Shown here in pieces: positions 42,817 to 61,791 of a stretch of 64,000 bases of DNA (its first letter is position 1; the number at the start of each line of letters is the position of its first letter). The notes beneath the pieces were generated by a model. It had not been told where the DNA came from, ran no database searches, and saw nothing but the letters and a program-made list of their open reading frames with translations. Both the position numbers and the translations under genes were made by a program. Origin of the DNA: Parvibaculum sedimenti (GTDB lineage Bacteria > Pseudomonadota > Alphaproteobacteria > Parvibaculales > Parvibaculaceae); contig NZ_WESC01000013.1 of NCBI RefSeq assembly GCF_009184905.1, forward strand, positions 1-64,000, read 5' to 3'.

Positions 42817-45342
42817 TCACGCCTTGCCCATGACGTCCTTCACGGCGGCGGCGAGCTGCTTCAGCGAGAAGGGCTTGGGCAGGAAATGGAACTGCTGCTC
42901 GGGGTCGAGGCTCTTCTCGAAGGCATCTTCGGCGTAGCCGGAGACGAAGATGATCCTGGCGCCCGGAAGCTTGCCCCTGAGTTCCTTCACCATGGTCGGC
43001 CCATCCATGTTGGGCATGACCACGTCCGAAACCACGAGGTCAATCTTGCCCTCGAATTCCTGAACGAGCGCGATCGCGGCCTCGCCGCAGTCGGCCTGAA
43101 GCACTTCATAGCCGCGTGTCTGAAGTGCGCGGGCGGCGAAGGTGCGCACGGCGTCCTCGTCCTCGACGAGGAGGATGGTGCCCTTGCCGGTGAGGTCGGT
43201 CGGTTCGGCGGCGACGGCTGCGGCTTGCGCTTCCGCCTCGGCCTTGGCCTCGGCCGGCGTTTCGAAATAGCGCGGCAGATAGATGCGGAAGGTCGTGCCC
43301 TTGCCCACCGTCGAATAGGCGAAGATGAACCCGCCCGTCTGCTTGACGATGCCATAGACAGTCGAAAGGCCGAGGCCCGTTCCCTTGCTCGGATCTTTCG
43401 TCGTGTAGAAGGGCTCGAAAATCTTGCCGAGATTTTCCTTCGGAATACCGGTGCCTGTATCCGCGACCTCGATCAGCAGATAGTCGGCGGGCGGCATCAT
43501 CGCGTGGTCGAGCGCACGGGAATCCTCCTCCGAGACGTTCGCCGTGCGGATGGTCACCCGGCCGCCGTCCGGCATGGCATCGCGCGCATTGACGGCCAGG
43601 TTCATGATGACCTGTTCGAGCTGATTCTGGTCCACCTTCACCAGGCCGAGATCGCGGCCATGCACGATCTTGAGCTCGACTTTCTCGGTCAGAAGGCGCG
43701 ACAGCAGGTTCTGAAGCTCGGCCAGCGCGTCGGTGAGTGAAAGAACCTTGGGGCGCAAGGTCTGGCGGCGCGAGAAGGCGAGCAGCTGCCGCGTGAGGTT
43801 CGCGGCGCGGTTGGCATTCTGCTTGATCTGCATGACATCGGCGAAGGACGGATCGCCCGCCTGATGGCGCGCGAGCAACAGATCACAGAAGCCGATGATG
43901 GCGGTCAGCAGATTGTTGAAGTCATGCGCCACGCCACCAGCGAGCTGACCGATGGCCTGCATCTTCTGCGACTGGGCGAATTGCAGTTCGAGCGATTTCT
44001 GTTCGGTCGCGTCGATAAGGTAGACAACCGTGGAGCTTCCACCCTCGCCGCTGTCGACGCGGCTGGCATAAAGCTGGCCGACGCGCTCCGGACGATTGAC
44101 CAGACGGACTTCGATGGGCGGCCCGGGCTGCCTGCCCCCGCGCAGGGCGGCGAGGCTTTCGAGCAGGGCCGGGCGATCATCCTCGACCAGAAGATCGGCC
44201 AGCGGCACGCCACGGGTCACATTGCCGCCCATATATGAGAGGAAGGCGCTATTGGCATTGTCGATGCGGCCTTCGGCATCAACGGTGGCGATGCTGATCG
44301 GTGCGTTGTTGAAGAAGCGCGCGAAGCGTAATTCTGCATCGCGGGCGTTGCCCTCGGCCTCGCCGGAGGTGGCGCGGTCGAGCACCAGCGCGCAACTGAT
44401 GAACTCTCCATCCTTGCCACCGGCCTTGGGCACCAGCGAGCGCAGGATGCGGACCGGCACCGGACGCCCATTTGGCCCCTTGAGATCGGCATCGACGATG
44501 GAAGCATCCTCGAAGTCCGAAACCATGGAGAGCCCGGCGACGTCGCCAAGCAGAATATCGGAGAGCTTCTGCGTCCGCCCGGAGAGGCGTTCCACCGAGG
44601 CGCCGAGCCAATCTGCGAGCTTGTTGTTCACATAGAGAATTTCGCCGCTCAATTCGGCGGCGTAGAAACCGATGGGCGTCGCCGAAAGAAAGGCAGAGGC
44701 GCGCCGCCATTGCTGTTCGGCCTGATCGAGGCGCTCACGCTCCAGCGTGAGGTCGCGGAGCAACCATACGGCTCCGCCCAGCTGGCCGCTCAGTGGCCGC
44801 ACCACAACCTGATAGGTCCGCTCGGCAAGGCCGGTGCGGAGCGCAAAGCGAATTTCCTCCTCGGCGGCAAATCCGGTGCGCGCGGCCTGGGCCAGCCGGT
44901 ATAGCGTCTCGGCATGCCCCTCCCTGCCCGCAAGCAAGCGCTCGAGCGGCGCGGGCCGGTCAGCATTCACGGAACCGACGAGGCTGCGGTAAGCCTCGTT
45001 CGCGAAAAGGACGGCACCGCGCCGGTCAGTCGCATAGCAGGGATCGGGAAGCGCGTTGAGCGCGTCGCCCGCCGCTGCCGGCGCCCGGCTCACATCGCGC
45101 GAAATGGTCGAACTGAAGCCGAACAGGATGATGCCGGCGGCGCCGATCGTTCCGATGACGGTGAGCACACCCGGCACGGCGAAAGCGTGGAACCCCAGAA
45201 TGTCGAGCAGGATCGCAAGCCCGGCGACCGCCACGCCCGCAAGCGTGAAGATTTGCCGTGGCGACAGGCGCGAACCCGGCTCGCGCCCGGACGCATTACG
45301 TTCCAGTTCAGCCATTTCAGCTGACGTTTCGGTCATCGGCAT
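42817..45342 (-). CDS. cckA: Hybrid histidine kinase CckA
   Basis: 841 residues. Two membrane helices (~30-50, ~55-76), PAS-like domains spanning ~95-445, H-box GQLAGGVAHDFNNLLTAI with His473, ATPase boxes (NLAVNARDAM, ADTGTGIP, GTGLGLSTVYG) and a C-terminal receiver with Asp773. This is the CckA pattern, the kinase that through ChpT phosphorylates CtrA in alphaproteobacteria. It follows flhB on the same strand, and CtrA-type boxes occur across the flagellar locus. GGGGGC precedes the ATG. Confidence 0.92.
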   Translation of the reverse strand: MPMTETSAEMAELERNASGREPGSRLSPRQIFTLAGVAVAGLAILLDILGFHAFAVPGVLTVIGTIGAAGIILFGFSSTISRDVSRAPAAAGDALNALPDPCYATDRRGAVLFANEAYRSLVGSVNADRPAPLERLLAGREGHAETLYRLAQAARTGFAAEEEIRFALRTGLAERTYQVVVRPLSGQLGGAVWLLRDLTLERERLDQAEQQWRRASAFLSATPIGFYAAELSGEILYVNNKLADWLGASVERLSGRTQKLSDILLGDVAGLSMVSDFEDASIVDADLKGPNGRPVPVRILRSLVPKAGGKDGEFISCALVLDRATSGEAEGNARDAELRFARFFNNAPISIATVDAEGRIDNANSAFLSYMGGNVTRGVPLADLLVEDDRPALLESLAALRGGRQPGPPIEVRLVNRPERVGQLYASRVDSGEGGSSTVVYLIDATEQKSLELQFAQSQKMQAIGQLAGGVAHDFNNLLTAIIGFCDLLLARHQAGDPSFADVMQIKQNANRAANLTRQLLAFSRRQTLRPKVLSLTDALAELQNLLSRLLTEKVELKIVHGRDLGLVKVDQNQLEQVIMNLAVNARDAMPDGGRVTIRTANVSEEDSRALDHAMMPPADYLLIEVADTGTGIPKENLGKIFEPFYTTKDPSKGTGLGLSTVYGIVKQTGGFIFAYSTVGKGTTFRIYLPRYFETPAEAKAEAEAQAAAVAAEPTDLTGKGTILLVEDEDAVRTFAARALQTRGYEVLQADCGEAAIALVQEFEGKIDLVVSDVVMPNMDGPTMVKELRGKLPGARIIFVSGYAEDAFEKSLDPEQQFHFLPKPFSLKQLAAAVKDVMGKA

Positions 45343-49055: not shown

Positions 49056-49070
49056 TTAACCCGTCATTAA
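49056..49070. promoter_or_regulatory. CtrA box between flgB and fliO
   Basis: An exact TTAA-N7-TTAA (spacer CCCGTCA), 70 bases before fliO and ~180 from flgB. CtrA regulates early flagellar genes in Caulobacter and relatives. Confidence 0.75.
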
Positions 49071-50272: not shown

Positions 50273-53200
50273 CTATTCGTTCGCAGCAACGGCGGTGCCG
50301 TCGAGCTCCGAGACCCGGTCGTCTTTCTTCAAGGAATTGACGAAACGCTCCATCGTGTTGACGGAGGCGATCCGGCTCGCGAGCTCACGGAAGGCCACGC
50401 CGTTCTTCTCGATGGCATCCGTCACAACCGCGAAAGCGCTGGCATCAGAGGTGGCGGCCATGCGGCTTCCGAATTGCGTTCTCAGCCGCGAAAGTCCTTC
50501 CTCGTCCTCAGCCATCGCATAGGCAATCGCGCTACGCATGACATCGAAGCGTTCGTCATCCGTAAGCGGCCTTGCGCCGCCTGCCCCGGCAAGCACGACC
50601 TCGGCCGCGGCTCCCGCGTCGCCCCAACGTTGCGCTTCCCAGAGGATATCGGCGCGCAGCACTTGCGCGATCGGGCCGGGAATCTCCGACAGGAGATCGA
50701 GCGCCAGATCGAATTTCTTGAGTGAGCCGAGCGAACGTGCCTCGATCAGGCGGCGTTGCTCGTCGATATCTTCAGGCAGCCCGTTCTGCGCCGTGGCACG
50801 GATGATGTTGAGCGCGTCCTGCGGCTTGCGGTCGAGGAGATAGAGACCTGCAAGGCGAGCCGCCACCTGCGCCTTGGCGACGCCGCTATGGAGGCGTTGC
50901 TCGATCTGATAGCGAAGCAGCGTCTCGGCCTGAGGCAGCAAATCAAGCGATGCGAGATGCTCCGCCAGATGGCGCAACAGATCGTCGCCCCGCCGGCCGA
51001 TCGGCGTCAGGTCCTGGAAGTCATAATAGAGGCTCAGCGCCTGAATGGGCGGCAGTTTGGACGCGCTGTCGTTGATGAAATAGTCGGCGAAGATATCCGG
51101 CATCCGCGCGCCCATGGCCCGGGCGTCGTCGCTGTTGGGGAAGTTCACCGTGGCGACGCGCATGGTCTTCAACCCGGCCACGACATCGCCGGTGGCAAGC
51201 TGACGCTCCGAAAGCGCCGACAGAATGCGCAGCTCGAGATCGTCCCCGCGCCACATCATGCGAAGTTTTTCGAGTTCCGCGAGCAGCAACTTGTCGTTGA
51301 GTTTGCCTGCCCTGTTCAGCATCAATGCCTTTTCCAGCCGCGCCTGCACAGCGAACCGACGCACACCCTGGGCAATCGCATCGTCGTAAAGTACCGCCGC
51401 CTTATCGGTCTGGTCGAGGGCCGCTGCGATCTGCGCCTTGACCAGCAGAACCTCCGCATCCGCCGCATGATCGCCGCTGCGGTCGGGCAGCAACCTCATA
51501 TAGCCGCGCGCCGCCTGCAAATTGCCCATGGCGACAGCCGCGCGCGCCGCCTTCAGCTTGACGCGAGCGGCCAGTTGCGGCTCGAGACTGCTGATCGCCG
51601 GCGAGGCGAGATCGAAATCGCGCCGCGCCGCCGCCATCTGCCCAAGTTCCACCCGGGCAAGACCACGCCAGATCGCGGCATTCGGATCCATGGCAAGCGT
51701 ACTTGCCGAAAGGTCGGTGACCGCCTCCGCGTACCTATGAGCGAGGACCTTTGCGACGCCCTTGAGCGCGGCGAAGCCTGGATCGGAGCTGAGCCCGCCG
51801 TCGGCTTGCTCGGCTTGGCGAAGCTGAGCGACCGCTTCCGGACCCAGCTGATTGGCGACGAGAAACCGGGCATAAGTCACGCGCGCTGCAGCTACATCTT
51901 CGGCGTCGGCCATCGCGATCTTCGCTTCGAGGTCCTTGCGCTCCTCGGTGTAATCCTTCTTGCCGCGCCAGTCCGCGAAATCCATGAAGCCCGCATAGGA
52001 GAACGACGCCTGGGACGGCGTCTCCGAATTGTCGGCGGAGAGTGTCAGGCCGCTTTGCCGCGTCACAGCCACCGACTCCGGCCCGGCAACCACATTGAGG
52101 TCGTCCGCAATCTGCACGATGGCAAGCCCTTGCGCCGTTTGCAGTGCCTGAAACTCGACAAAGCTGCGCGGCGTCTGCAGCGATTGCACCGGCGCGCGGG
52201 CAGTCGCGACTTCGAGCACATCGCCCACGACAGGATCATGAATCTGGACGATGCGCCGCGCATCTTTCATGTCGAAGCCGACGACGCCCTCGCCCGTATC
52301 GCGCCATGACCGCTCGACATTGATCGATCGACCGGTGCCTGCAAGCGTTTCACCGACCGAAACCCGCCATTCGGTGCCGCTCTCTGCCGCGCTGACAAGC
52401 ACATGGCTCCGACCCAGGGGGAAGGCGAGCGCAACACCGTTCTCAATCTCGACAGAACGCGGTTGGCCAACCTGTTTCGACGCATTGCGCAGCAATGCCG
52501 ACAGATCGAGCGGCGCGGTCCGATCGAAGACGACCCAGAGCGTTCCGGCGCGAACGAAAACGGCCGCGCCTGCTGGCACGGTCCAGGGGAAGATAATGTC
52601 GGTGCGCCCGTCCACGGCGCTTGCGCTCACCTTGAGCGGTGCCATCTGCCCTGCCGCATCGGGCGCGGCGGCGGCAATTGGAACTTCCGGTTCGGGTTTG
52701 ACGGTTTCGGCTGCCTCGTGCTTTTCCACCGCTGGCGGTGCCTCGGAAGTCGGCACGATCCGCTTCGGTGTATGCGCTTGCGCCGCCGGAACTGCGGCGG
52801 CGGATTTCTCATGGTCGGCCCGCACGCGAGGCTCTTCCGCCACGGGCTCCGAGGCTTCAGTCTCCGCCCTCGGTTTCAGGTCAAGCACAACCCCAAGATC
52901 CTCGCGGAAATCGGTGACGGCGACACCCGGCTTCAGCTTCATAACGATGGAGAGGCGGCCATCGCGCTCCAGCGCGCTGATCGTTTCCAGGTAAGGCGGC
53001 GGGTCAACGCGGATCGGTGCCAGCGCCACCTTGGCCGAGCGATCGAAGGTGACCGTCGCCGCGCCCTCCTGCTGCACGACCGAATAGAGAACCGGCTGGT
53101 TCCAGTCGAAGACGAGGCGCGTCATGCCATCATGCCGTGCGACGCGAACGCGCAAAGCAGGCGCAGGCGCACCGGGATCAACGATGCCGAGATCCTTGAC

Positions 53201-53659
53201 GAGCTTGGCGTCCTCAGCCGCCTTCTTCTTCGCGGCGGATGCGGCCGCTATACGCGCCAGCACATCGGCTGGCAGCGACGGCGCCTTCCCGGCCCAGGAA
53301 GACGGCAGCAGATCAAGATAGAGGCTGCTCTCAGCCTGCTGAACGTTGAGCCAATAATCGAACTTGAGGGCGAGGCGCAACGTCCGGCCATCCGCATCCT
53401 GCCGCGCCATGGCGACATAATCCGGCATCTGGCGCATGAATTCGGAAAGGTCGGTCGTGAATGGCTGATCGAATTTAACGACCAGAACGCCCGAGGTGAT
53501 CGCCTCTACATGGGCGGGCACCCCGCCCGGCCAGGTAAGGACGATACGGCCATAGCCATCGCTCTCGATGAAGTTGCCCGAAACATTGACCGCGGCGCCA
53601 GCAGGCGCGGCCACGATCATGGACCAGACGACAAGCAGCGCCGCCGCAATGCTACGCAT
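50273..53659 (-). CDS. Large secreted beta-repeat and TPR protein, flagellar locus
   Basis: About 1128 residues, unnamed. After a signal peptide (1-23) four beta-rich segments follow a shared pattern: a charged strand, a VxFD-like strand (VVKFDQP, TVTFDRSA, VVFDRTA) and a closing strand, at roughly 24-120, 168-262, 341-436 and 445-530; they look AMIN-like. An acidic/Pro-rich linker lies at ~265-340. From ~575 to 1060 are TPR-like helices. It converges on fliP, three bases apart, follows motE-like/fliM genes on the same strand and has its own CtrA box. It is probably a periplasmic scaffold, perhaps for stator or basal body; its function is unknown. Confidence 0.8.
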   Translation of the reverse strand: MRSIAAALLVVWSMIVAAPAGAAVNVSGNFIESDGYGRIVLTWPGGVPAHVEAITSGVLVVKFDQPFTTDLSEFMRQMPDYVAMARQDADGRTLRLALKFDYWLNVQQAESSLYLDLLPSSWAGKAPSLPADVLARIAAASAAKKKAAEDAKLVKDLGIVDPGAPAPALRVRVARHDGMTRLVFDWNQPVLYSVVQQEGAATVTFDRSAKVALAPIRVDPPPYLETISALERDGRLSIVMKLKPGVAVTDFREDLGVVLDLKPRAETEASEPVAEEPRVRADHEKSAAAVPAAQAHTPKRIVPTSEAPPAVEKHEAAETVKPEPEVPIAAAAPDAAGQMAPLKVSASAVDGRTDIIFPWTVPAGAAVFVRAGTLWVVFDRTAPLDLSALLRNASKQVGQPRSVEIENGVALAFPLGRSHVLVSAAESGTEWRVSVGETLAGTGRSINVERSWRDTGEGVVGFDMKDARRIVQIHDPVVGDVLEVATARAPVQSLQTPRSFVEFQALQTAQGLAIVQIADDLNVVAGPESVAVTRQSGLTLSADNSETPSQASFSYAGFMDFADWRGKKDYTEERKDLEAKIAMADAEDVAAARVTYARFLVANQLGPEAVAQLRQAEQADGGLSSDPGFAALKGVAKVLAHRYAEAVTDLSASTLAMDPNAAIWRGLARVELGQMAAARRDFDLASPAISSLEPQLAARVKLKAARAAVAMGNLQAARGYMRLLPDRSGDHAADAEVLLVKAQIAAALDQTDKAAVLYDDAIAQGVRRFAVQARLEKALMLNRAGKLNDKLLLAELEKLRMMWRGDDLELRILSALSERQLATGDVVAGLKTMRVATVNFPNSDDARAMGARMPDIFADYFINDSASKLPPIQALSLYYDFQDLTPIGRRGDDLLRHLAEHLASLDLLPQAETLLRYQIEQRLHSGVAKAQVAARLAGLYLLDRKPQDALNIIRATAQNGLPEDIDEQRRLIEARSLGSLKKFDLALDLLSEIPGPIAQVLRADILWEAQRWGDAGAAAEVVLAGAGGARPLTDDERFDVMRSAIAYAMAEDEEGLSRLRTQFGSRMAATSDASAFAVVTDAIEKNGVAFRELASRIASVNTMERFVNSLKKDDRVSELDGTAVAANE

Positions 53660-53783
53660 CGCGCTATGCCGATTCAGATGATGCCAACCGGCCTCGATCA
53701 ATTCTTTGCCCGCCAGATTTACGCAGGCCGCATCAGAAAAACGCGCGGCCAGGTGCCTGAAGTCAAAGCATAAATGCGCGGAG

Positions 53784-53798
53784 TTAAGTGACGCTTAA
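53784..53798. promoter_or_regulatory. CtrA box upstream of the beta-repeat/TPR gene
   Basis: An exact TTAA-N7-TTAA (spacer GTGACGC) in the 170-base gap, 125 bases before the start. Confidence 0.7.
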
Positions 53799-53829: not shown

Positions 53830-54600
53830 TCAGACGTGTTTGCCCTTCGTGCCGTCGAGTGCGGCGCCGGGTGCGGCGGGAAGACCTGCCTGCGGCGCGG
53901 ACGTCGCGGCGGGCACATCCACCGACGGCTTGACGTCCTTGACCGCCGGCACGGCATCAATGCCATCAGGGAGCTTGTCGCCAGTGGCGAGTTCGACGGT
54001 CAGTTCCTGTGCCGTCACCGGGTCCATGGCGGCGAGCACGGCAGCAAGCTTGCGCGGCTCCATGCGCTTCGTCACATCGACCAGAACGCCCATGTCGAGC
54101 CGCTCGAAAATCCGCGCGGCGTCCTTCGGCTTCATCGTTTCATACATCTTCACGACGCCTGCGAGCCGCGCTTCGTTCGCCTTGTCGTTATCGGCGATGC
54201 GCGTCTTGATGCTCGCCTCGATCTGCTTCAACTCGCCAATCCGGTCCTCGACTCGCTTTTCAGCAGCCGTGAGCAGTTGCTCGCGCATTTCGATATCCTT
54301 GGCGCGCTTGTCCAGTTCATCGCGGCGTTGAGCAAGACTGCCGAGCACTGCAACCTCGGCGGGGCTCATGGCAGGATCGGAGGGCACCTGCGCCTGCTGC
54401 TTGGGCGCGGGAACCAGAGTCTCCGCATGGCCTTTCTCCGCGCCTTCGGAGGCCTTCTCCGCCTCCGCATGGTCGGCGGCACGGGCTGGCGAGATGGCGA
54501 CAAAGCCTTCGAGTCCGCCGACGAGATGAACGACCTTCAGCCCGAGCAAAAGCCCGGCGCAGAGCATCACGGTCGGCAGGAGACGAAGACGGTTGAACAT
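53830..54600 (-). CDS. motE: MotE-like flagellar protein (MgtE-N-like domain)
   Basis: 256 residues. One N-terminal membrane helix (6-27), a coiled coil (~95-145: LAQRRDELDKRAKDIEMREQ-type heptads), then MYETMKPKDAARIFERLDM and ILVDVTKRM-type MgtE-N helices, and a Pro/Ala tail. It resembles MotE, the periplasmic chaperone for MotC in Sinorhizobium. It lies between DUF6468 and the beta/TPR gene. Confidence 0.75.
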   Translation of the reverse strand: MFNRLRLLPTVMLCAGLLLGLKVVHLVGGLEGFVAISPARAADHAEAEKASEGAEKGHAETLVPAPKQQAQVPSDPAMSPAEVAVLGSLAQRRDELDKRAKDIEMREQLLTAAEKRVEDRIGELKQIEASIKTRIADNDKANEARLAGVVKMYETMKPKDAARIFERLDMGVLVDVTKRMEPRKLAAVLAAMDPVTAQELTVELATGDKLPDGIDAVPAVKDVKPSVDVPAATSAPQAGLPAAPGAALDGTKGKHV

Positions 54601-54610
54601 GGGGTAAACC

Positions 54611-55099
54611 TCAGCGGGCCCGCTTCAGAAGATCGAGCAGCGGATGCTGCGCCTGGGATTTCTGCGGCTGAGCCGCCCTCGCCGTTTCACGAGCGGGTGC
54701 AGCGCTCGCCTGACGCGGGCCGGAAGCCGGCTTCAGATTGGGCACGATTCCCGCCGGCGCGCGGCGCGCATCGATGTTGCCGAGACGATTGGCAATGTCG
54801 TTGCCGGCTTCGAGCATGAAGGCAAGCTCGTCAGCAAGACTCCTGCCCCGAGCAACATGTTCACTCAGTTTCTGGCCCGTCGCATTCGAAGCATCGCGCA
54901 GGCGGGTGATGGCATCCGACGCCTGCTCAGTCGCGGCAGACAGTTCGCCGATCAGATCGCGCAGACCATCCTGCCCCGAGCGCATGGCGCGGAGGCGACG
55001 GTCGATCATGGCGCAATAGCCGATCGTCGCGACGAGCAGTATCGAGACGATGCCCTCCAGCAGGAGGTCGAACGGCAATCCGGTTTCAAGGAAATTCAT
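54611..55099 (-). CDS. DUF6468 flagellar-locus protein
   Basis: 162 residues: an N-terminal membrane helix (LLLEGIVSILLVATIGYC), then a coiled-coil soluble part with a Pro/Ala tail. Matches my memory of DUF6468, found beside fliM in alphaproteobacteria. Its start overlaps the fliM stop by four bases, so coupled translation is likely. Role unknown. Confidence 0.72.
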   Translation of the reverse strand: MNFLETGLPFDLLLEGIVSILLVATIGYCAMIDRRLRAMRSGQDGLRDLIGELSAATEQASDAITRLRDASNATGQKLSEHVARGRSLADELAFMLEAGNDIANRLGNIDARRAPAGIVPNLKPASGPRQASAAPARETARAAQPQKSQAQHPLLDLLKRAR

Positions 55100-56232
55100 C
55101 GGCGCGCTCCTGTGGCGTTCGATCCGCCTGCCTGGTTTGCCGCCATAGCGGCCTCCATCGCCTCGGTGCGATTGGTTTTCTTGATGCCATGCTCGATGCG
55201 CACGGCGACGTTGCTGCTCATGCGCCCGATGCGCCCCGATGCGAGCGGCACACCGCCGCAGCGCATTTCGACCAGCGCGTCAGGCCCGTTGTTCAGCATC
55301 AGCGTTTGCCCGACCTTGAAATTCATGACTTCGCGAAGCGTGAGCTTCTGTTCGTCGAGTACCGCTTCGAGCGGAACCTTGGTCGACCAGAGTTCAGTCG
55401 CGAGATGGCTTTCCCAGATGGAATCCCGCCCGAACTTCTCGCCCATGAACATCTGAAGCAGAAGTTCACGGATCGGCTCGAGCGTCGCATAGGGAAGCAG
55501 CATTTCGATGCGGCCGCCGCGATCTTCCATGTCGATGCGGAGCTTGACCAGAATGGCTGCATTCGCAGGACGTGCAATGGCAGCAAAACGCGGATTGGTC
55601 TCCATCCTGTCGAGTTCGAGATTGACCGGCGACAGGGGTTCGAAGGCGGCTTTCGCATCCTGCAGCACGACTTCGATCATGCGCTGGACGAGATTGAGCT
55701 CAATGGTCGTATAGGGCCGCCCCTCGATACGCATCGCGGCTGTGCCGCGGCGTCCGCCCAGCAGCACGTCGACGATCGAATAGATGAGGTTCGAGTCGAC
55801 CGTGAACATGCCGTAATTGTCCCACTCCTGTGCACGGAAGACAGCGAGGATGGCCGGCAGCGGAATGGAATTCAGATAATCGCCGAAGCGGATCGACGAA
55901 ATATTGTCGAGGCTCACCTCAACATTGTCTGACGTGAAATTGCGAAGGCTTGTGGTCATCAGACGCACGAGCCTGTCGAACACGATTTCAAGCATAGGCA
56001 GGCGCTCATAGGAGACGAGCGCGGAATTGATGATTGCCTTTATGCCCGATTTGTCGCCGGCATCTTCATTGTCGATCTCGAAGCCGAGCAGGCTGTCGAT
56101 CTCGTCCTGGTTGAGCACGCGTTCAGGCGGCGCGCGAAACTCAGGCTGCGCCGCGGCCTCATCCTCATCGTCCGCCATGGCGGCCATGGCCGCGGCCATT
56201 TCGTCCTGATCGATGTCGTCGATATCAGCCAT
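55096..56232 (-). CDS. fliM: Flagellar motor switch protein FliM
   Basis: 378 residues. An N-terminal LNQDEIDSLLG CheY-binding motif and the FliM middle domain (RNFTSDNVEVSL ... GDYLNSIPLPA) with a C-terminal surface-presentation domain. C-ring component controlling rotation. Confidence 0.96.
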   Translation of the reverse strand: MADIDDIDQDEMAAAMAAMADDEDEAAAQPEFRAPPERVLNQDEIDSLLGFEIDNEDAGDKSGIKAIINSALVSYERLPMLEIVFDRLVRLMTTSLRNFTSDNVEVSLDNISSIRFGDYLNSIPLPAILAVFRAQEWDNYGMFTVDSNLIYSIVDVLLGGRRGTAAMRIEGRPYTTIELNLVQRMIEVVLQDAKAAFEPLSPVNLELDRMETNPRFAAIARPANAAILVKLRIDMEDRGGRIEMLLPYATLEPIRELLLQMFMGEKFGRDSIWESHLATELWSTKVPLEAVLDEQKLTLREVMNFKVGQTLMLNNGPDALVEMRCGGVPLASGRIGRMSSNVAVRIEHGIKKTNRTEAMEAAMAANQAGGSNATGARR

Positions 56233-56264: not shown

Positions 56265-56759
56265 CTACTGAACGATGACTTCCTTGAAGAGAATGTCGCT
56301 GACGATTGGCGGCTGGATCGCGAGCGTAATCCGACGCAGCAGCTCTTCCTTGACGCGTGCCATGCCGGCTGACCCTTCAAGGTCTTCAGGCCTGAGTTCG
56401 CGCAGAAAGGTCTGGAAGCCGTCGAGAACGCGCGGAAGCTCCGCGTCGAGGCGCTTGACGGCTTCCTTGTCCGTAACCTGGAGCGACACTTTCATCTTCA
56501 GAAAGTGCTGGGGCGCCGGACCGCTCAGGTTCACGAGAAAGTCCGGCAGGTCGTAGAAGACCGGCTCGGCAACAACCGGCTTCGCATTTTCACCGCCGCC
56601 GAGAAGCCCCGAAAAATAGACGCCGGCGCCTGCTCCACCGAGCAGGAGGAGAGGAACGACGATGTAGAGAACGAGAACCCTTCCGCTCAGCTTGCGCTTC
56701 GCGGGAACGGCGGCCTCTGCTTCATCACCTGAAGCATCAGCGCTGATCGCTGCTGCCAT
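56265..56759 (-). CDS. fliL: Flagellar basal-body protein FliL
   Basis: 164 residues, one membrane helix (LVLYIVVPLLLLGGAGAGVYF) and the periplasmic FliL domain (FYDLPDFLVNLSG). It supports the stator. First gene of fliL-fliM-DUF6468-motE-like. Confidence 0.94.
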   Translation of the reverse strand: MAAAISADASGDEAEAAVPAKRKLSGRVLVLYIVVPLLLLGGAGAGVYFSGLLGGGENAKPVVAEPVFYDLPDFLVNLSGPAPQHFLKMKVSLQVTDKEAVKRLDAELPRVLDGFQTFLRELRPEDLEGSAGMARVKEELLRRITLAIQPPIVSDILFKEVIVQ

Positions 56760-56998: not shown

Positions 56999-57014
56999 TG
57001 GCACACGCCCTGCA
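56999..57014 (+). promoter_or_regulatory. Sigma-54-like promoter of flgF
   Basis: TGGCACACGCCCTGCA: GG at -24 and GC at -12 with the correct ten-base gap, 45 bases before the flgF ATG. One T of the -12 element is C. Confidence 0.65.
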
Positions 57015-61776: not shown

Positions 61777-61791
61777 TTAAAGCGGCGTTAA
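61777..61791. promoter_or_regulatory. CtrA box between fliX and flgI
   Basis: An exact TTAA-N7-TTAA (spacer AGCGGCG), 80 bases before fliX and 170 before flgI. Confidence 0.75.

Follow-up and report, generated by a model that had tools for sequence, protein, structure and literature searches.

A predicted MotK/FssB/PflA-type motor scaffold gene with its own putative CtrA promoter in the flagellar locus of Parvibaculum sedimenti

The stretch of DNA analyzed here (the window; 64,000 nucleotides, positions 1 to 64,000 of contig NZ_WESC01000013.1) carries a motK/fssB-like gene at 50273-53659 on the reverse strand. Its product comprises 1,128 aa counted from the ATG, and its stop lies at 50273; the frame is also open from a TTG at 53701, and the ATG at 53659 represents the better start. 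A Sec signal peptide is predicted at the N terminus (MRSIAAALLVVWSMIVAAPAGAA), where the AlphaFold2 model has a helix at residues 2 to 15. An initial annotation had described an open reading frame of about 1,128 residues with a signal peptide, located after a motE-like gene, a DUF6468 gene, and fliM on the same strand, and the reading frame, the gene order, and the predicted signal were all confirmed. The same-strand genes upstream are as follows.

56265-56759, reverse strand: fliL (PF03748, 3.8e-20)
55096-56232, reverse strand: fliM (PF02154, 3.4e-70)
54611-55099, reverse strand: DUF6468 gene (PF20072, 5.7e-21)
53830-54600, reverse strand: motE-like gene, for an E-ring protein of the FlgY/FlbB kind (MgtE_N, 4.9e-5, narrowly below its cut-off; collar_FlbB, 4.1e-9, likewise below its cut-off)

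The motK-like gene is convergent with fliO-fliP, and it has the fliL cluster on one side and the flgB-flgC-fliE-fliQ-fliR-flhB cluster on the other. Adjoining flhB, at window positions 42817-45342, is a gene for a hybrid kinase resembling CckA, which scores 905 bits against NF046020 (cut-off, 1000). CckA is the head of the CtrA phosphorelay. The DUF6468 gene stands where the fla2 operon of Cereibacter has pflI (operon order according to PMC10954123), and DUF6468 may represent the PflI family, which is associated with flagellar positioning.

An AlphaFold2 model of the protein, built from 73 sequences (mean pLDDT, 86.9), agrees with a second model of residues 22 to 548 alone. The domains delimited with these models and with profile comparisons are as follows.

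53288-53596, reverse strand: predicted AMIN-type module 1, residues 22-124 (bbbb-a-bbbb in the AlphaFold2 model; hhalign to modules 2 and 3)
52862-53170, reverse strand: predicted AMIN-type module 2, residues 164-266 (hhalign to true AMIN; Pfam AMIN matches in relatives)
52646-52861, reverse strand: predicted disordered linker, residues 267-338 (pLDDT <50)
52343-52645, reverse strand: predicted AMIN-type module 3, residues 339-439 (hhalign to module 2; merged profile)
52025-52342, reverse strand: beta-domain 4, apparently not AMIN, residues 440-545 (hhalign; all-beta in the model)
50300-51979, reverse strand: predicted TPR alpha-solenoid, residues 561-1120 (model helices; TPR profile; conservation)

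The strand order bbbb-a-bbbb is seen three times in the model, in modules 1 to 3, as judged from secondary structure, and a helical linker is modeled at residues 131 to 156. Single-protein searches of Pfam, NCBIfam, and PDB gave weak matches only, and PF11741 scored 12.5 bits on the window protein, i.e., below the Pfam cut-off of 20.5. Comparison of profiles by hhalign revealed that modules 1 to 3 are homologous to each other (99.0% for 1-2, 96.8% for 1-3, and 98.3% for 2-3), with beta-domain 4 reaching at most 1% against any of them. Against a reference set of 26 AMIN domains from alphaproteobacterial genomes, picked by PF11741, module 2 alone reached 93.2% over 33 columns; module 1 alone (36%) and module 3 alone (42%) were aligned over nearly their full length. 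The merged profile of the three modules matched the 26 domains at 95.1%, with a score of 43 over 80 columns; column-shuffled and reversed profiles served as controls, and column-shuffled AMIN profiles scored at most about 20. Among relatives, Pfam AMIN was the commonest match for module 2 (12 of 37), and the best of these modules matched AMIN at 2.1e-4 and AMIN-like at 8.5e-6. A profile of module 1 or module 2 alone found no AMIN chain in PDB. The initial annotation had proposed four AMIN-like beta segments; by the profiles and the secondary structure of the model, AMIN-type modules are indeed present, and three of the four segments appear to be of this type, the fourth being judged not to be AMIN (1.2% by hhalign). 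The order AMIN1-AMIN2-AMIN3-domain 4 was found in 73 of the 95 relatives examined, with none to three AMIN-type modules detected in the remainder.

The long TPR region, also proposed earlier, was borne out by about 28 helices forming an alpha-solenoid in the AlphaFold2 model and by a match of the family profile to designed TPR chains at 5e-9. A 1e-6 match to the type IX secretion proteins PorW/SprE was dropped as generic TPR similarity (27.7 bits; cut-off, 250). The TPR stretch at residues 791 to 945 is the most conserved part of the protein and contains WRGD and LTPxGxxGD motifs; it is probably the face on which a conserved partner docks.

The family profile matched 175 of 289 well-assembled alphaproteobacterial genomes (E 1e-3). 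At E 1e-20 there were 154 carriers, 148 of which also possess FliM, and 115 of the 289 genomes have neither (Fisher p 1e-50 for the co-occurrence, not corrected for relatedness). The flagellar setting noted at the start proved to be general, nearly all relatives with readable flanks lying in a flagellar locus; motE, DUF6468, fliM, and fliL are found upstream in the great majority of fetched loci, and the named loci that depart from this pattern mostly reflect contig ends. Four loci (L095, L133, L135, and L150) have several kilobases of flank without a flagellar gene recognizable by the window's own proteins. One of these (L150:5992-9342, forward strand) is a full-length relative outside the usual operon in a metagenome-assembled genome labeled Robiginitomaculum; it adjoins an apparent NAD kinase reading frame and has a large flagellin/hook-like reading frame on its 3' side (judged by eye). 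In several relatives, cheY and a CheZ-like gene lie between motE and motK, as confirmed by Pfam in L060:5092-6195 (forward strand) and seen by eye in L037:12415-13539, L042:12835-13910, and L045:10696-11792 (all reverse strand).

Proteins of this kind have been described in several bacteria. MotK of Cereibacter sphaeroides, encoded after fliL2-pflI-motE-motA2, is a periplasmic protein with an AMIN-type N terminus and TPRs that is essential for rotation; it binds MotE and MotB2, and the flagella of a delta-motK strain are paralyzed (PMC10954123). Deletion of Caulobacter CC_2058 (fssB), which adjoins the motE homologue CC_2059, leads to non-turning flagella and blocks stator-dependent adhesion signaling (PMC7885107). 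Fold comparison matched both MotK and CC_2058 to PflA of Campylobacter, a TPR spoke meeting the E-ring protein FlgY (PMC11870540, PMC13023049); PflA combines an AMIN-like sandwich with the TPR spoke and is related in fold to CC_2058 (PMC11870540).

The window protein resembles MotK (RSWS8N_12065) in having a predicted signal peptide, an N-terminal AMIN-type domain, and a C-terminal TPR region, in being encoded downstream of the fliL-pflI-motE order, and in its flagellar cluster, the fla2 cluster of C. sphaeroides being under CtrA (PMC10954123, PMC6180460). With FssB/CC_2058 it shares the Sec signal, the TPR region, the AMIN-like N terminus, and the place next to a motE homologue (PMC7885107, PMC10954123, PMC11870540). 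As judged from the model, it also has the architecture of PflA of Campylobacter and Helicobacter, i.e., an AMIN-like beta-sandwich, a flexible (here disordered) linker, and a long TPR superhelix or spoke, with the gene for an E-ring partner adjacent; PflA is a partner of the E-ring protein FlgY and is needed for stator placement (PMC11870540, PMC12222027). A further likeness is to MotC of Sinorhizobium meliloti, a periplasmic motility protein that is rich in TPRs and dependent on MotE (PMC13023049).

There are also clear differences. MotK has 652 aa and one AMIN domain, whereas the window protein has 1,128 aa with three predicted AMIN modules and a fourth beta domain. In Cereibacter, motA2 lies between motE and motK, but no motA lies between the motE-like and motK-like genes in the window. 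PflA has a single beta-sandwich, pairs with PflB, and belongs to another phylum; the relation is one of fold and not of sequence. For MotC, no AMIN domain has been reported, and its gene follows motB instead of motE (PMC13023049). By position and architecture, as opposed to direct alignment, the protein belongs with MotK, FssB (CC_2058), and PflA, the TPR partners of MotE/FlgY; one scan of genome contigs for similar sequences brought up closer relatives than MotK or CC_2058 and nothing beyond them. The gene itself is unannotated, and its earlier description as uncharacterized holds to that extent, yet its kind, that of MotK, FssB, and PflA, is already known from the literature. Because these characterized relatives are stator-linked (PMC10954123, PMC7885107, PMC11870540), the role at the stator or rod-wall interface that had been suggested for the protein gains support by analogy.

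The same literature bears on whether the protein would be a fixed part of the motor or, instead, a periplasmic chaperone for the assembly or stability of MotE or of the stator complex. In S. meliloti, MotE is reported to act as a chaperone for MotC (PMC13023049), and in C. sphaeroides the stability of MotE depends on MotK (PMC10954123). However, MotK-sfGFP is located at the flagellated pole and requires MotA2/MotB2 (PMC10954123), and PflA is resolved as a structural spoke (PMC12222027), which together make the chaperone explanation improbable.

A pair of MotB-like genes stands immediately before motK in many relatives, among them members of other genera in the same family, and mostly the ends overlap. 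The first of the two lacks the Asp of the FxDL motif; the second has this Asp and, in many cases, an OmpA domain. Examples of the tandem pair are given below.

L060:6211-7625, forward strand
L031:10932-12325, reverse strand
L065:6426-7855, forward strand
L066:11346-12766, reverse strand
L146:4583-5976, forward strand
(plus others)

Where genomes were checked with PF13677, carriers of the MotB-like pair also had a strong MotB match elsewhere; a single MotB and no tandem pair was present in the window genome and in the two members of its genus that were checked. We found no description of such a pair before motK in the literature searched. The close placement of these MotB-like genes in so many relatives ties motK to the stators.

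A perfect TTAA-N7-TTAA had been reported in the gap before the gene, and it was found between the motE stop and the motK-like start, with a -10-like element downstream.

53784-53798, reverse strand: predicted CtrA box TTAA-N7-TTAA, perfect match (TTAAGTGACGCTTAA)
53768-53773 (approximate place), reverse strand: -10-like element (column conservation in the genus alignment; fixed spacing in 39 loci)

CtrA-activated promoters in Caulobacter have a TTAA-N7-TTAA box and a conserved element at a fixed distance downstream. The genome encodes CtrA (427 bits, over the cut-off) and GcrA. Perfect boxes number 3 in the window (0.02 expected) and 9 in the whole 3.7-Mb genome; the other two in the window lie at 49056-49070 (flgB-fliO gap) and 61777-61791 (before flgI).

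The box could in principle be a chance match in AT-rich DNA or the site of another regulator, with the gene read through from fliL: the intergenic gap is short, motE is on the same strand, and 24 of 64 loci with adjacent motE and motK lack a perfect box. The remaining 40 have one (the loci are related, so the counts are not independent), which represents a ~400-fold excess over 100 dinucleotide shuffles (mean, 0.09 boxes; at most 1). Against a chance match, moreover, the box is kept in 23 of 24 loci of the genus (the same-genus genome L027 has no perfect box), and the genus alignment reveals near-invariant half-sites and a following C around a variable spacer. A -10-like cTAgAcT (cTAnAcT) is conserved downstream of the box in relatives, and this layout, with the box near -35 and the -10 element a constant distance away, is that of a CtrA-type promoter. 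Elsewhere in the same loci, no perfect box was found in flgF-fliL gaps (0 of 52), in fliL-fliM gaps (0 of 57), or inside motK (0 of 80); the exception among the gaps of the cluster is fliO-flgB, with a perfect box in 33 of 37 relatives. When other genes intervene between motE and motK, perfect boxes are few and lie mostly just after motE. An explanation by chance or by another regulator is thus very improbable, and a CtrA promoter belonging to the motK-like gene itself is very likely on the comparative sequence data. The earlier proposal that the gene may be timed to flagellar assembly apart from the fliL run would fit the specificity of the box for the motE-motK gap over the flgF-fliL gap. 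In 42 of 52 relatives, the flgF-fliL gap has a sigma-54-like site pointing at flgF; in the window, such a site (TGGCACACGCCCTGC) lies at 56999-57013 and is oriented to flgF.

Of the new points in this analysis, the CtrA box has the best support, and its placement differs from that in Cereibacter. C. sphaeroides has one CtrA site identified ahead of fliL2 and one predicted ahead of motA2, which precedes motK (PMC6180460), whereas the box in the window lies directly before the motK-like gene.

These observations suggest, with a probability of roughly 0.8, that the gene encodes a periplasmic motor scaffold protein of the MotK/FssB/PflA type that is expressed from its own CtrA promoter. By analogy with the characterized relatives, the TPR arm, most conserved at residues 791 to 945, would dock both on MotB and on the MotE ring that encircles the MS-ring, with the AMIN modules extending outward to peptidoglycan and/or neighboring scaffold proteins. 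Stators would be held and activated at the rotor edge around the MotE ring, and loss of the gene would leave a filament that is present but does not turn. CtrA would switch the motK-like gene on directly, and because there is no perfect CtrA box before fliL-fliM-motE, the spoke protein could be made independently of the ring protein.

How the beta part contacts its surroundings bears on this proposal. The AMIN modules might not bind peptidoglycan; the beta part and the linker would then form a protein clamp, a rim around the stators, with wall contact made by MotB alone. Such an arrangement has a precedent in PflA: there, PflB and not the wall is bound by the AMIN-like domain and the linker, and the AMIN domain resembles those of PilQ (PMC11870540). 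In the window protein, the predicted disordered linker at residues 267 to 338 could wrap a partner. On the other hand, three AMIN modules exceed the need of a single clamp, and an unsystematic look recognized no PflB-like second TPR protein in the loci. We regard the clamp as a realistic possibility, somewhat short of an even chance; a peptidoglycan-anchored spoke holding the stators around the MotE ring is, by analogy, the most likely arrangement. In an extended form, which we put forward as speculative and rather doubtful, a triple-AMIN, wall-anchored MotK spoke would occur across much of the Alphaproteobacteria, its CtrA promoter would fire apart from the MotE operon, and it would work with the tandem MotB-like pair in many lineages. 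If this is true, the triple-AMIN spoke and the MotB-like pair would constitute an accessory stator-anchoring module that is undescribed in the literature found.

Through this analysis, a large and so far unannotated family of proteins from flagellated Alphaproteobacteria is assigned to the MotE/MotK/FssB/PflA stator-scaffold system, and the domain map (three predicted AMIN modules, beta-domain 4, and the TPR region) offers known borders for cutting. A CtrA promoter of its own, which comparative sequence data make very likely, would tie stator-scaffold assembly directly to this cell-cycle regulator.
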